DNA of 64,000 nucleotides from Enterococcus mundtii (GTDB lineage: Bacteria; Bacillota; Bacilli; Lactobacillales; Enterococcaceae): positions 2,043,501 to 2,107,500 of the forward strand of contig NZ_AP019810.1 of the NCBI RefSeq assembly GCF_013394305.1, given 5' to 3'. Every line of letters starts with the position of its first letter. Positions within the stretch are counted from its first letter, which is position 1. Positions 51,861-57,119 of the stretch are shown here, one piece after another. The notes beneath the pieces were generated by a model. The model ran no database searches and was not told the DNA's origin. It saw only the letters and a list, made by a program, of their open reading frames with translations. The position numbers and the translations under genes are program-made.

Positions 51861-53465
51861 ATGAAACGTTGGATCAAGGTGGTAGGAGGATTACTGTTGA
51901 CAGGGATCCTTGCAAGTTGTGGCACAGGAGATACTGCAACAAATACAAATGCACAAAATGATGAAAACTTGAATGTAATGACGACATTTTATCCAATGTA
52001 CGAATTTACGAAGCAAGTAGTTGGTGAGGAGGGAAATGTTGAATTATTGATTCCAGCTGGAACAGATTCACATGACTACGAACCTTCTGCAAGAGATATG
52101 GCAAAAATCCAAAATGCTGATGTTTTTGTTTATAATGATGAAAATATGGAAACTTGGGTTCCAGCAATTGAACATACTTTAAAAGAGGGCGATGTACTTC
52201 CAATCAAAGCAACAGAAGGAATGTTGTTATTGCCTGGGGATGGTCATTGCCATCACCACGATCATGACGATGAAGACCACGATCATGAAGACCATGATCA
52301 CGATGATCATGCGGATGACCACGACCATGATCACGATCACGGAGACAACGGTCATTCACATGAATTAGATCCACATGTTTGGTTAGCTCCTAATCTAGCG
52401 ATGAAGCAAGTAGAAACGATTCGTGACCAATTGATTGAGGCATATCCTGAAAAAGAAGAAGCATTCACTGAAAATGCTGCCTCTTATTTAGAAGAATTAG
52501 AAACGCTACACAACACTTTTAAAGAAACATTAGGTCAAGCAAAACAAAAATCATTTGTGACCCAACACGCTGCGTTCAATTATTTAGCTCTAGAATATGG
52601 TCTTAATCAAGTACCAATTGCCGGTCTTTCTTCAAGTGAAGAACCTTCTGCTGCAAGAATTGCCGAGTTAAAAGAATTTGTTGAAGACCATGGGATTGAA
52701 TATATCTATTTTGAAGAGAATGCCAAAGACAGTATCGCTCGTACTTTAGCTACTGAAGCAGGCATATCGTTAGCAGTATTGAATCCTTTAGAAGGATTGA
52801 CAAAAGAGCAAATGGATAACGGTGAAACGTACATTTCAATCATGGAAGCAAACTTAAAAGCGCTCCAAAAAACTACGGATACTGAAAATCCATTAGAAGA
52901 TACATTGAAACCTGAAAAAGAAAAAACAGTTTATAATGGTTATTTTGAAGATTCAGAGGTCCAAGATCGCCCGTTATCAGATTGGAATGGTATCTGGCAA
53001 ACTGTCGATACGTATATGGCAGATGGAACGTTTGATCAAGTATTTGAATATAAAGCCAAAACAAATCCAGATATGACAGCTGAAGAGTATCGTGAATACT
53101 ATGAAATAGGCTACAAAACAGATGTCGAAAAAATTGAGATCAAAGATGATACGATGATCTTTACTTTCAAGGATGGCGAAGTTAAAGAATCGAAATACCG
53201 TTATGCTGGTAAAGAAATCTTGAACTATTCAGCAGGTAATCGCGGTGTCCGTTTCTTGTTTGAAGCAGAAGATCCTGATTCTGGTGCGTTCAAGTATGTA
53301 CAATTCAGTGACCACTCGATTGCGCCTACCAAATCAGACCATTTCCATATCTATCTAGGAAATGAAAGCCAAGAAGCTTTACTAGAAGAAATGGACAATT
53401 GGCCAACTTTCTATCCGGAAGAAATGACTGGAAAAGAAATCGCGCAAGAAATGATCGCGCATTAA
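51861..53465 (+). CDS. adcA: Zinc-binding lipoprotein AdcA with ZinT domain
   Basis: 534 residues. Signal peptide with lipobox ILASC (lipidated C20), a cluster A-I substrate-binding domain of the ZnuA/AdcA type (about 35-345) with a very His/Asp-rich loop (about 126-169), and a C-terminal ZinT/YodA domain (about 355-534; VQDRPLSDWNGIWQTVD, DHFHIYLGNE). It catches Zn2+ outside the membrane and hands it to an AdcBC permease, which is not next to it here. The preceding Zur box fits zinc-starvation control. Start by GAGAAGGAG. Confidence 0.94.
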   Translation: MKRWIKVVGGLLLTGILASCGTGDTATNTNAQNDENLNVMTTFYPMYEFTKQVVGEEGNVELLIPAGTDSHDYEPSARDMAKIQNADVFVYNDENMETWVPAIEHTLKEGDVLPIKATEGMLLLPGDGHCHHHDHDDEDHDHEDHDHDDHADDHDHDHDHGDNGHSHELDPHVWLAPNLAMKQVETIRDQLIEAYPEKEEAFTENAASYLEELETLHNTFKETLGQAKQKSFVTQHAAFNYLALEYGLNQVPIAGLSSSEEPSAARIAELKEFVEDHGIEYIYFEENAKDSIARTLATEAGISLAVLNPLEGLTKEQMDNGETYISIMEANLKALQKTTDTENPLEDTLKPEKEKTVYNGYFEDSEVQDRPLSDWNGIWQTVDTYMADGTFDQVFEYKAKTNPDMTAEEYREYYEIGYKTDVEKIEIKDDTMIFTFKDGEVKESKYRYAGKEILNYSAGNRGVRFLFEAEDPDSGAFKYVQFSDHSIAPTKSDHFHIYLGNESQEALLEEMDNWPTFYPEEMTGKEIAQEMIAH

Positions 53466-53567: not shown

Positions 53568-54296
53568 TCAAGAAATCAACTTCTTTAGCCCACGAATCGA
53601 AACAGGGATCACTTCCCCGTTGGATAGAGTCACTTCTCGTGTTTTCTTATTGATTGTTTGGACATTTTGGGTATTGATGACATAAGATTTGTGACAGCGG
53701 ATAAAGTGTTGACTTTTCTTTTCGATATCTTTTATCTTCTCGTAAAACTGCATTTGGGCATGTGTCAAATGGACCTCCAGTTTATGAGGAGTACCTTGAG
53801 CAGTAGAAAAGTATTGGATATCTCGAATAGGTAAAAATTTGATTTCATCATTGAATTCAATTCTAAAAATATCCTTTTGTAATGGCGCAGTTTGGAAATC
53901 TTCGAATATTTTACTTAAGATACGTTCAACATTTTCTTTAAGATCAAAAATATCTTCTTTGATGATATAATCAGTCGGCTCAATGTTGCTTTTCAAAATC
54001 GTCATGGAAAGATCGGTGTGTGAAGTAACATAAATGATTTTTCCAAGCGAGTCCAAGTCACGTACTCGTTTTCCAATGGCAATGCCATCTAATTCACTGT
54101 CTTTCAGTTCGATATCCAAAAAATAAATACCAAAAGAAGACGTACGTATCCTTGCTGCATTGAGGAGTTCAATAGGATCAGAAGTTGCAATATGGACATA
54201 ACTATCCAAATTTTCAATCATGATCCGATTCTTGATTACTGTAGAGATGACTTCCAGTTGTTTCGGATCGTCTTCACAAATGTAAATGGGAATCAT
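53568..54296 (-). CDS. agrA: AgrA-type response regulator (LytTR)
   Basis: 242 residues. Receiver domain (about 1-125; acidic E8-D9-D10, phospho-acceptor D61 in YFLDIEL, and a later Lys K113-like) and LytTR DNA-binding domain (about 145-242; HFIRCHKSYVINTQNV, REVTLSNGEVIPVSIR). It is the output of an Agr/Fsr-type peptide quorum-sensing system. AAGGAG lies in the last codons of the kinase gene; the gap is four bases. Targets unknown; its own operon is the first candidate. Confidence 0.92.
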   Translation of the reverse strand: MIPIYICEDDPKQLEVISTVIKNRIMIENLDSYVHIATSDPIELLNAARIRTSSFGIYFLDIELKDSELDGIAIGKRVRDLDSLGKIIYVTSHTDLSMTILKSNIEPTDYIIKEDIFDLKENVERILSKIFEDFQTAPLQKDIFRIEFNDEIKFLPIRDIQYFSTAQGTPHKLEVHLTHAQMQFYEKIKDIEKKSQHFIRCHKSYVINTQNVQTINKKTREVTLSNGEVIPVSIRGLKKLIS

Positions 54297-54300
54297 AAAA

Positions 54301-55584
54301 TTACTCCTTTAATTGTATATGGATTGTTTGTGAAAATCGCTGATTCTCAATCGATGTTTCAAGAAAAAGATAAGGATTCGTTTTTGTTAACTCATCAAGA
54401 ATAAATAAACCTAATCCTTCATTTTTGGGATTTGTTTTCGTCGAGAAGCCTTTTTGTTTTAACTTACTCAATGGAAACGTATTCGTAGTAGTGTTGATGA
54501 CACGTATCATCAACGACTGTTTTTTCTTGATGATCAGTACTTCGATTTTTTTCTTTTTGGTTACTGTTGCACCTTCGATTGCATTATCAAGAATAATACC
54601 AAGCATTCTTACCAAATTGATCGTATATTTTTTACCAATGACGATTTCATCTGGAACGGTCAATTGGACAGAGATACCTTTTTCTTGTGCCATCATTAAT
54701 TTTAAAGAGAATAGACTTCTTATTTCAGGTACCTTCATTTTGTCTAGTAAGCTAAGATTTGCTGGGAAGAGATTCATCATTTCACGTGTAGGTAAAATCG
54801 TTTGGTTATAATATTTTTGTAAGCCCTCAAGATCGCCTTCAGAAATATAACTATTCAAAGAAAACAACAGATTTTGATAATCGTGTTTAAACTCTCTAAG
54901 CTCTTGATAATTTTTTTCTAGATCTCTAATGTAATCTTGCTGCAATTGGATGCGTTGTTCCAATAATTGATCTGCCATCTTTTTATTTGATATTTTCCAA
55001 TAGTAAATCAAGATAATTAGGCCGACACACAGATAAAGGATAAAAAAGCTCGTATTTAATGCTAGTACTTTTGGCGTTTCACCAGAAAATCGTGTATAAA
55101 AAATAATGATATAGTAGGTAAGTAAAACCAATGAACCGATTGTACCAATCATTCGACGGTCAACACTAGCGGACCAATTATCTAAAAACTTTTTGAATCC
55201 ATACGCAAATAATAAAGATAAAATCGCTGATACAGTTATATGGAAATATTGTAATGCATCTCCAGGTTCAATGACAGCAGATTCCAATACTAAAAAATCC
55301 GCAACGCTCGTCAAATGATCGCCTAAAATGGAAGCTAATAATCCCAAAGGTAATGCGTAGATCATATGTTGGCGCGAGGATGAAAAGAAAAAGAAAAGTA
55401 GACTCAACATGGCAATTGCGACAAGTGCAGAAAAAATACCTAAAATCGGGTAAAGTATTCCCAACAGGGCTGCTGCCAAGAGACTAAACGTAGAAAATAG
55501 GTATTTATTTTTAATTTGGGAATTGATGATTAAGATAGAACTTGTGTAAATCAGATATTGCAAGGCTATGGACCACAAAAACAT
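54301..55584 (-). CDS. agrC: AgrC-type sensor histidine kinase
   Basis: 427 residues. Six or seven N-terminal membrane helices (about 1-200), coiled coil (about 200-230), the HPK10-class motif FKHDYQNLL with H234, and an ATPase domain with N box ILDNAIEGA and a G box KNEGLGLFIL. The pattern is that of AgrC/FsrC receptors for cyclic peptides. ATG 55584 has GGGAG upstream. It follows the small agrD gene by 49 bases. Confidence 0.92.
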   Translation of the reverse strand: MFLWSIALQYLIYTSSILIINSQIKNKYLFSTFSLLAAALLGILYPILGIFSALVAIAMLSLLFFFFSSSRQHMIYALPLGLLASILGDHLTSVADFLVLESAVIEPGDALQYFHITVSAILSLLFAYGFKKFLDNWSASVDRRMIGTIGSLVLLTYYIIIFYTRFSGETPKVLALNTSFFILYLCVGLIILIYYWKISNKKMADQLLEQRIQLQQDYIRDLEKNYQELREFKHDYQNLLFSLNSYISEGDLEGLQKYYNQTILPTREMMNLFPANLSLLDKMKVPEIRSLFSLKLMMAQEKGISVQLTVPDEIVIGKKYTINLVRMLGIILDNAIEGATVTKKKKIEVLIIKKKQSLMIRVINTTTNTFPLSKLKQKGFSTKTNPKNEGLGLFILDELTKTNPYLFLETSIENQRFSQTIHIQLKE

Positions 55585-55633
55585 AAAGCACAGCTCCCAT
55601 TGCGTTTTCCCAAATTATAGCATATTTATATTA

Positions 55634-55744
55634 TTATTTTTTTAATTTTTCAGGTATTTTAAATTCTGAGCTCATACCGAAGCAGCAGCCAGATACAAAG
55701 AAATCAGAAAGGTTAGTTAATTGTTTAACGATTGTTTTTTTCAT
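55634..55744 (-). CDS. agrD: AgrD-type autoinducing peptide precursor
   Basis: 36 codons on the minus strand, ATG with GGAGG seven bases upstream. It overlaps the end of agrB by 20 bp. Parts: amphipathic leader MKKTIVKQLTNLSDFFVSG (1-19), core CCFGMSS (20-26), and acidic/charged tail EFKIPEKLKK (27-36). The tail has the F-x-[IV]-P-x-x-L pattern of staphylococcal AgrD (EFEVPKEL) and Lactobacillus LamD (ETKIPDEL). In those, cleavage is six residues before the proline; here that falls between S25 and S26, giving a core of CFGMS closed by a thiolactone on C21. C20 could give a six-residue variant. Confidence 0.88.
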   Translation of the reverse strand: MKKTIVKQLTNLSDFFVSGCCFGMSSEFKIPEKLKK

Positions 55745-56327
55745 AAAAAATTCCTCCAATATTCATCATGTAATTTGTAACTGGAAGCAACGTAGCTATT
55801 TCTAAAATAATCCCAAGTAGTAAATAGGTAGAAAAGTAAGAAGCAGAGAAAAATAATGTGAGTACTGCAAATAAAAGATACATGAAAATTGCTTTTTTTA
55901 GTAGGGGTGGGCGTTTCTCTGGTGCAATTGGGTTAAGGGCTGTGCCTCTTGATCCATAGCGAAGCAAAAGGAAAAAACAAACAATTAACAAAAGGACCAT
56001 CATAGGGAAAGAGAAAGTCAATTGATAATGTTTCATTACTAAGGGAACCCCCCACAAATAAAGCAAAGTCCAAAGTAAGCAAACAAATTCAGAATCGGAA
56101 TGGAGACCGTAAGCATATCTGCGAATACAGATATATGAAAGGAAAGTCATTCCTGTTTCTACCCACGTGCCTGTCAATAAAGAAAATACAAAAACGACAG
56201 CAAGTTTTCCAAGATTGTTCAGCAAAACTTCCAGAGCAAACTTCACTTGGATGTAAGTCATATCTTCTTCATCTTGTTTTCCGTTGAATAATATTGCCAA
56301 TATTCGATTTACCACTTTATTTTTCAT
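55725..56327 (-). CDS. agrB: AgrB-type peptide processing protease
   Basis: 200 residues with five or six membrane helices. Catalytic pair H76 and C83 in GLHSDSEFVC, spaced seven apart as in staphylococcal AgrB (H77, C84), preceded by the conserved RRYAYG. It cuts the C-terminal tail of AgrD and closes the thiolactone ring. First gene of the B-D-C-A set, which is the gene order of Agr and Lam, and not that of E. faecalis fsr. Ribosome site GGAGG nine or ten bases before ATG. Confidence 0.93.
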   Translation of the reverse strand: MKNKVVNRILAILFNGKQDEEDMTYIQVKFALEVLLNNLGKLAVVFVFSLLTGTWVETGMTFLSYICIRRYAYGLHSDSEFVCLLWTLLYLWGVPLVMKHYQLTFSFPMMVLLLIVCFFLLLRYGSRGTALNPIAPEKRPPLLKKAIFMYLLFAVLTLFFSASYFSTYLLLGIILEIATLLPVTNYMMNIGGIFYEKNNR

Positions 56328-56340
56328 CTCTATACGTACC

Positions 56341-56417
56341 TCCGAATACTATAATAAGCGAAAAGACATAAAAAAAGTTTTTCGATTCATAAAAGGACGT
56401 TTTGACATCAAAATCGT
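56341..56417 (-). promoter_or_regulatory. agr promoter with upstream dyad
   Basis: On the minus strand -10-like TATTAT (56351-56356) or TATAGT (56348-56353) has only poly-T at the -35 place. About 20 bp further upstream, at 56397-56417, ACGATTTTGATGTCAAAACGT is almost a palindrome (TTTTGA-TG-TCAAAA at the centre) and contains AACG repeats. A weak -35 plus an upstream dyad is what an AgrA-activated promoter should show. Confidence 0.5.
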
Positions 56418-56903
56418 TAACTAAGTGAATTTTGTAACATATTTGTTATACAAGAATGAAAAGCTTTTTCTTATGTAAAAAATAAAAGACATGTTTATCT
56501 CTAAATAATTAAAAAATTTCCTGTAAAACTATCAAATCATCTTTAAATTTTCAACTAAACGTACGATTATACCAAAAAAGAGTGAGATTATTTAACAGTT
56601 TTGATGCCAAAAGAACTTTTTATGATATTTCTGTGTTATGTTTAAAAATTTATGTTAAAAATTAGTAAAGGTTGCGAAGATAAATGTAAGTGACACGTTC
56701 TTATATTTTTGTTTTACCAACTTCTTAATAGAAGGCAGCAACTCCCCTTCCCCTTTTGTTGTTGCCTTCTGATATCAACAACAAGGTAGTTTCTATGTTA
56801 AAATGCAAGCCTTTAAGAAGGTGGGTTTGTCAATAAAGGTAACAGATTCGAAATTTTATCAAAAGAAGTTGTGCCGTATGCACAACATAATGGAGGAAAT
56901 AGC
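56418..56903. other. AT-rich intergenic region between agrB and a small gene
   Basis: No convincing gene. A stem-loop at 56730-56770 (AGAAGGCAGCAAC / GTTGTTGCCTTCT) and a hairpin GTTGTGC-CGTAT-GCACAAC at 56868-56886, just before the ribosome site of the next gene, are the only clear structures. Confidence 0.5.
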
Positions 56904-57119
56904 ATGGAAAATGAAAATCTATTTGAAGTCGGTAAAACGTACGCATTTGTATCAGATTTATTTTGTTCTCCAATTGAAGCAGAAATTGAAAAAATCTATG
57001 AGAATAGTTTGATGGTTCGTGTTCTCAATTGCGCAGATGAAGACAATGAAACTGCACACAATTTACACTGGCAATTAGTCGTTCGTAAGTCAAGTGCAGT
57101 GAAAGAGTACAGCTACTAA
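56904..57119 (+). CDS. Small conserved protein (DUF2187-like)
   Basis: 71 residues from ATG 56904, seven bases after GGAGG; an upstream in-frame ATG lies inside a hairpin and lacks a site. It reads FEVGKTYAFVSDLFCSPIEA then a beta-rich body ending HNLHWQLVVRKSSAVKEYS, similar to small KOW-like DUF2187 proteins of enterococci. No membrane segment. It has its own terminator. Function unknown; its neighbour on the other strand is the agr operon. Confidence 0.6.
   Translation: MENENLFEVGKTYAFVSDLFCSPIEAEIEKIYENSLMVRVLNCADEDNETAHNLHWQLVVRKSSAVKEYSY

Follow-up and report, generated by a model that had tools for sequence, protein, structure and literature searches.

Which signal does the agr locus of Enterococcus mundtii send, and which genes answer to it? 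We address these questions for a 64,000-nucleotide (nt) stretch of an E. mundtii genome (NZ_AP019810.1, positions 2,043,501 to 2,107,500; hereafter the window), whose minus strand carries, from 56327 to 53568, a complete agrBDCA locus in the order B-D-C-A. We regard it as likely that the whole of the circuit proposed below operates here, including a regulon of competition genes governed by AgrA through a 31-bp DNA element, and this shared element suggests that the agr system switches on genes for killing competing bacteria. The locus itself is of a known type, and the candidate regulon is what is new. An earlier, sequence-only reading of the window had placed the four genes exactly where we find them; to this we add paired promoter elements, a probable regulon and two further agr-like loci.

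The agr locus and its predicted signal

The four genes of the locus are the following.

agrB, 55725..56327, minus strand: 200-residue membrane peptidase that processes AgrD (H76, C83), by Pfam and alignment
agrD, 55634..55744, minus strand: signal precursor of 36 residues from its ATG; predicted ring CFGMS at residues 21-25
agrC, 54301..55584, minus strand: 427-residue receptor histidine kinase (H234), by Pfam, NCBIfam, alignment and the solved S. aureus module
agrA, 53568..54296, minus strand: 242-residue LytTR response regulator, by Pfam, NCBIfam and solved S. aureus chains

The products match the expected Pfam families, AgrB with PF04647 (2.2e-24), AgrC with GHKL (1.6e-15) and AgrA with LytTR (7.1e-21). 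The S. aureus-type models of NCBIfam also recognize AgrC (5.9e-52) and AgrA (1.2e-47), both under the curated equivalog cut-offs, and the NCBIfam AgrD model gives the agrD product 13.2 bits, under its cut-off of 19; no Pfam family matches that product over cut-off. The catalytic assignments of the sequence-only reading are borne out, since the H76/C83 pair of AgrB is invariant in 10 of 10 aligned rows (without G012, where the gene is broken, and G002, where a contig end cuts it) and H234 of AgrC in 11 of 11 (without G002). The LytTR domain of AgrA can be aligned to solved S. aureus AgrA chains, and the alignment holds counterparts of the histidine, asparagine and arginine that we take to be the DNA contacts of the S. 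aureus protein. AgrC is likewise alignable to the kinase module solved for S. aureus; for AgrB, sequence comparison with the PDB gave no relative. The host genome measures 3.3 Mb, and its AgrB is 99% identical to that of E. mundtii strain N55263.

With a His/Cys peptidase of the AgrB type, a short AgrD beside agrB, an AgrC-type kinase and a LytTR regulator, the locus is an ordinary Agr-type quorum-sensing system. Two other types were considered and rejected: the fsr type, which makes the gelatinase biosynthesis-activating pheromone (GBAP) of E. faecalis, because agrD lies mostly downstream of agrB and the predicted ring starts with a cysteine; and a linear inducing peptide of the bacteriocin type, because AgrD has no GG leader and an AgrB-family gene is adjacent. 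The sequence-only reading had also set the locus against fsr, and the difference in arrangement stands; its description of the fsr peptide as fused to FsrB is dated, fsrD being a frame of its own within fsrB according to a passage of PMC3673130.

A gene as short as agrD is easily taken for a chance frame. It follows a GGAGG ribosome site and overlaps agrB by 20 nt, most of it lying downstream. The gene is intact in 12 of the 16 same-genus genomes and was matched in none of 90 other Enterococcaceae genomes, while an order-level AgrD profile matched 17 of 396 genomes, 11 of them strongly and all of these in the same genus; the six weak matches outside the genus (E 9e-5 to 0.007) were not counted. 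Against ten relatives, three have agrD DNA identical to the window, and the other seven show synonymous and amino-acid codon changes in the proportions 5/3, 8/1, 8/1, 10/0, 10/1, 8/1 and 9/7. Judged by this pattern, the 36-codon frame picked out by the sequence-only reading is a real gene and more than chance. None of the 12 genomes showed a broken agrD beside an intact agrB and agrC. The opposite case occurs once, in E. mundtii Pe161 (G012), where agrB is broken into two pieces and agrD, agrC and agrA are intact; this is either a natural non-producer or a sequencing error.

The break in G012, together with three genomes (G001, G011, G013) that retain only AgrA and the divergent gene div70 described below, could be held to mark the locus as a decaying relic of little function. 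We consider this very improbable: all four genes are intact in the window, and in most of six comparisons (E. hirae agrA being compared over 240 codons) synonymous change exceeds amino-acid change in agrD, agrB, agrC and agrA alike. Amino-acid change over these six amounts to 0-19% in AgrD, 16-36% in AgrB and 22-41% in AgrC.

The structure of the peptide is one we infer. In staphylococci, the spacing between the end of the ring and a proline in the tail sets a ring of five residues, and the same spacing here suits CFGMS, closed by a cut after residue 25. In 10 of 12 genomes the predicted ring reads CFGMS; it is CFGML in G015 and CFGIM in G003, and the tail SEFKIPEKLKK is identical in 12 of 12. 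Differences between species lie in the leader and at the fourth and fifth ring positions, as predicted by such a cut. The CFGMS ring proposed in the sequence-only reading is thereby supported by a conservation pattern independent of the rule that suggested it. The genome with CFGIM, deposited as E. faecalis 13-SD-W-01 (KE351659), groups with the E. mundtii/E. faecium genus, and its deposited name is probably wrong.

A different cut, giving either a ring of six residues that starts at C20 (CCFGMS) or the CFGMS ring plus an exocyclic tail, seems rather unlikely to us, though it deserves weight. C20 and C21 are both invariant, and staphylococcal signals carry tails, as stated in a passage of PMC12405376. 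The proline spacing, by contrast, suits the five-residue ring, and the same source describes the signals of Listeria monocytogenes and Lactiplantibacillus plantarum as tail-less, LamD558 of the latter being CVGIW, and mentions a rearranged, homodetic form of tail-less signals. The predicted CFGMS signal may begin at the ring or carry C or GC before it; the calculated [M+H]+ values are 526.179 for cyclic CFGMS, 629.188 for CCFGMS and 686.210 for GCCFGMS. An open-access literature search for CFGMS returned unrelated papers only.

A paired promoter element

The aligned upstream regions of 12 agr loci share a 31-bp element in two copies, inverted with respect to each other, upstream of agrB. The features concerned, with the divergent open reading frame (ORF) that the distal copy faces, are these.

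Proximal 31-bp box, 56387..56417, minus strand: faces agrB; 0 mismatches to the relaxed pattern defined below; predicted AgrA site
Distal 31-bp box, 56595..56625, plus strand: inverted; faces the divergent gene; predicted AgrA site
Candidate -10 hexamer TATTAT, 56351..56356, minus strand: 30 nt behind the proximal box
div70, 56904..57119, plus strand: 71-residue ORF divergent from agrB, ATG placed by homology; predicted AgrA target

The distal box is kept at 12 of 12 agr loci and the proximal one at 11 of 12; both are candidate autoinduction sites. The divergent ORF is conserved and matches no Pfam family over cut-off. In G001, G011 and G013, which have no agrB, agrD or agrC at the syntenic position, an AgrA orthologue (65-66% identical) stands beside a div70 homologue (66%), and a degenerate box pair (4 mismatches) is left in two of the three. 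These arrangements look like remnants of agr loci.

Distribution and architecture of the box

A first pattern, drawn from the agr-locus sites alone and scanned at up to 3 mismatches, finds 10 sites in the host genome, two being those from which the pattern was drawn and eight lying off the locus, and its reversed form finds none. A relaxed pattern (up to 2 mismatches, reversed pattern as control) was shaped with the sites of the first, and only the first-pattern scan is therefore free of circularity. In the 12 agrD-bearing genomes the relaxed pattern has 95 sites (control 1), against 3 in the four same-genus genomes that lack agrD (control 0) and 10 in the remaining 90 Enterococcaceae (control 14). 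After removal of the 18 agr-locus sites, genomes with agrD hold 1 to 15 sites each and those without 0 to 2 (one-sided Mann-Whitney p 0.0037, uncorrected for genome relatedness).

Two features recur around the boxes, neither of which was built into the pattern. We compared 55 unique site sequences from 59 fetched loci, three of these loci coming from genomes without agrD; the sample omits L108 (host contig C1:883759, 2 mismatches) and unfetched sites. The best TATAAT match falls 29-31 nt behind the box in 21 of the 55 (nominal binomial 6e-13, computed as if all sites were independent, although sites in related genomes are not). A start codon with a ribosome site lies within 330 nt of the box at 36 of the 54 sites with room for it; for 19 of those 36, the distance from the beginning of the box to the first such codon is 100-119 nt. 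A mirrored-position control is weak, with 9 usable sites only, of which two have any start and none has one at 85-150 nt. Of ten loci scanned for small ORFs, by a rule that proved too strict, one gave a start, and two loci were translated directly instead.

Predicted target genes

On contig C3 of the host genome, a class II bacteriocin gene stands behind a box (Bacteriocin_II 3.2e-9), accompanied by a C39 ABC transporter and an EntA_Immun protein. Its counterpart in E. mundtii QU 25 is annotated as of the leucocin A/sakacin P family, and by our reading of its sequence the peptide would be mundticin; the locus also carries a third half-site, again spaced by 21 bp. Another box precedes a protein with LXG (5.8e-9) and EndoU (8.4e-16) domains, and other neighbours of boxes in this genome are a secreted protein on C3 and small membrane proteins. 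Among the relatives, boxes precede class II bacteriocin genes and a YydG-like radical SAM protein (under cut-off) in E. durans, a secreted protein of the LMxysn_1693 family (1.3e-50) in E. hirae, and, on a plasmid of E. faecium DSM 20477 (G004), the gene of a peptide that we take to be enterocin P-like. Relatives' boxes also precede secreted preproteins of about 200 residues followed by small membrane proteins. Several of the small secreted or membrane proteins behind boxes match no family over cut-off, so that an antibacterial role for these would follow from their neighbourhood only.

A query with the E. durans bacteriocin matched 321 plasmid records, of which eight were fetched. A box with 0-2 mismatches lies 129-144 nt before the bacteriocin gene in four of five E. 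faecium plasmids, the 6.17-kb mobilizable plasmid NZ_CP044269 among them, and in none of three E. faecalis bacteriocin plasmids (best 7-8 mismatches); two of the eight (L245, L247) have no gene annotated, and their start was placed by analogy. Hiracin-JM79 is the annotation given in two records from that match list. The contrast between the two species is small, yet it is what a clade-specific regulator predicts.

Since boxes precede bacteriocin genes, an LXG-EndoU locus and genes for small secreted proteins, agr is likely to be a clade-wide switch for antibacterial weapons, several of them plasmid-borne.

Which regulator reads the box

The host genome encodes three LytTR proteins: AgrA, AgrA2 (36% identical to it) and AgrA3 (74%). 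AgrA2 belongs to a second agr-like locus (L002, contig C1:98663-102169) in the order C-A-B-D, with a 54-residue precursor whose core is DCTFVIYKPKMPEAL and whose predicted ring is CTFVI; two scans of the host genome found no box there within 3 mismatches. AgrA3 stands with AgrC3 (L231:2624-4656; contig C1, about 1.631-1.633 Mb), the pair being 72-74% identical to AgrC and AgrA, and no agrB or agrD lies within the 8 kb fetched around it. The same pair is found on the conjugative plasmids NZ_CP018062 and NZ_KP342511 of E. mundtii and E. faecium, and the E. faecium record has a box with 2 mismatches near it.

It is conceivable that the agr circuit is real and that another LytTR regulator, AgrA3 or a regulator of bacteriocins, reads the box, which the agr promoter and the weapons would merely share. 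The identity of AgrA3, its position with AgrC3 near a box, and the presence of boxes without a close AgrA in G009 would all fit such an arrangement. We nevertheless hold it to be improbable. E. faecium G004 has boxes and four LytTR proteins, and the three that are not AgrA are only 26-29% identical to it, so that AgrA alone has a close counterpart in both the host genome and G004; the second agr-like locus has no box; and the box pair is kept at the agr promoter across species.

Several observations weigh against the circuit proposed below. G015 has no proximal box, and G009, which has no close AgrA, holds a perfect box and a second with 2 mismatches; G013, which has no agrB, agrD or agrC, still has one. 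In E. mundtii, AgrA3 could share sites with AgrA. At 18 of the 54 sites with room, no start with a ribosome site lies within 330 nt, although the rule used also overlooked the genes for mundticin and the enterocin P-like peptide. No gene start is listed in the 2 kb behind the host-genome site at G000:C1:883759, and some box sites are probably due to chance. The second LXG-like locus of the host genome is marginal, its G007 homologue scoring 26.0 bits against an LXG cut-off of 26.5, and at a lipase_3-like box locus the Lipase_3 match is under the Pfam cut-off. Finally, the word "bacteriocin" is absent from the main text of PMC10046512 and PMC11826239, which report changes of these genes.

Proposed circuit

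We propose that AgrB would cut the 36-residue AgrD after S25 and that a thiolactone would join C21 to the S25 carboxyl end, so that the product is CFGMS, perhaps preceded by a short N-terminal tail. The exported signal would bind AgrC, which would phosphorylate AgrA. AgrA would in turn bind the 31-bp site (two TTNTGA-type half-sites 21 bp apart). The genes and their catalytic residues, the constraint on agrD, and the box with its position and its spread among genomes are read from the sequences; AgrA binding, the direction of regulation and the antibacterial role are what we infer. The proximal copy would drive agrBDCA as feedback and the inverted copy the divergent div70, while copies on chromosome and plasmids would drive class II bacteriocins, LXG-type toxin loci and secreted proteins beside small membrane proteins.

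A bolder extension may as readily prove wrong as right: that CFGMS is common to the E. faecium/mundtii/hirae/durans clade, that mobile weapons have converged on one AgrA box, that plasmid AgrC-AgrA pairs eavesdrop, and that neighbouring species fire together. A signal that is the same from one species to the next, with a receptor that varies by 22-41%, would imply cross-species signalling, and mobile weapons of the mundticin, hiracin-JM79, enterocin P and LXG types sharing one box would mean that any new arrival comes under the resident AgrA. The E. faecium clade gains a candidate pheromone with exact masses, and several enterococcal bacteriocins gain one predicted regulator, with a bearing on probiotics, food protection and gut competition.

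Three side observations concern the surroundings of the locus and of the boxes. A lipoprotein with fused ZnuA and ZinT domains (window 51861-53465) is convergent with agrA, and it stands beside the agr locus in seven of 11 relatives' stretches and on a further contig in an eighth (E. durans). At a perfect box of G009 (L179, contig C32), a LysM-type secreted protein is listed about 960 nt downstream. The host genome has box-bearing LXG loci despite a type VII secretion EssC that is split into two overlapping frames (contig C1:1435386-1439188).

Comparison with known systems

The same locus has probably been reported already in E. faecium transcriptomes, as AgrB/C/A (PMC10046512) or as fsrA/fsrC/fsrBD (PMC11826239); the passages concerned give no peptide sequence, box or bacteriocin target. 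In a passage of PMC10765913, agrA figures in a list of bacteriocin-related genes from E. faecium and E. lactis, and our search of the open-access literature, which covered parts of PMC8532689 and PMC3546714, found no paper tying agr to mundticin, hiracin or enterocin P.

The agrBDCA locus of S. aureus is alike in gene order, in the families of AgrB, AgrC and AgrA, and in the rule for a five-residue ring. Staphylococcal Agr signals are split into pherotypes, whereas the signal here is nearly constant between species. In S. aureus, too, two divergent promoters under the regulator's control, P2 and P3, lie upstream (figure legend in PMC10046512); here the divergent promoter faces a 71-residue ORF, and the predicted targets are bacteriocins and LXG loci.

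The fsr system of E. faecalis is likewise an enterococcal Agr-like circuit, controlling the precursor of an antimicrobial, enterocin O16 (as described in part of PMC5454873), and fsr-like genes are mentioned in the vagococcin T cluster (a passage of PMC9431498). It differs in that fsrD lies inside fsrB, in its 11-residue lactone (PMC3673130, PMC5454873), and in that the three E. faecalis bacteriocin plasmids have no box.

A further relative is lamBDCA of L. plantarum, with the same gene order and a pentapeptide ring, CVGIW, apparently also placed after a cysteine (passages of PMC12405376 and PMC3673130). According to the same passages, LamKR beside LamBDCA is an extra two-component system that works with the main one, and AgrC3-AgrA3 may be its counterpart here. 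The ring sequence of the E. mundtii system differs, its extra pair is found on plasmids as well, and its predicted regulon is another.

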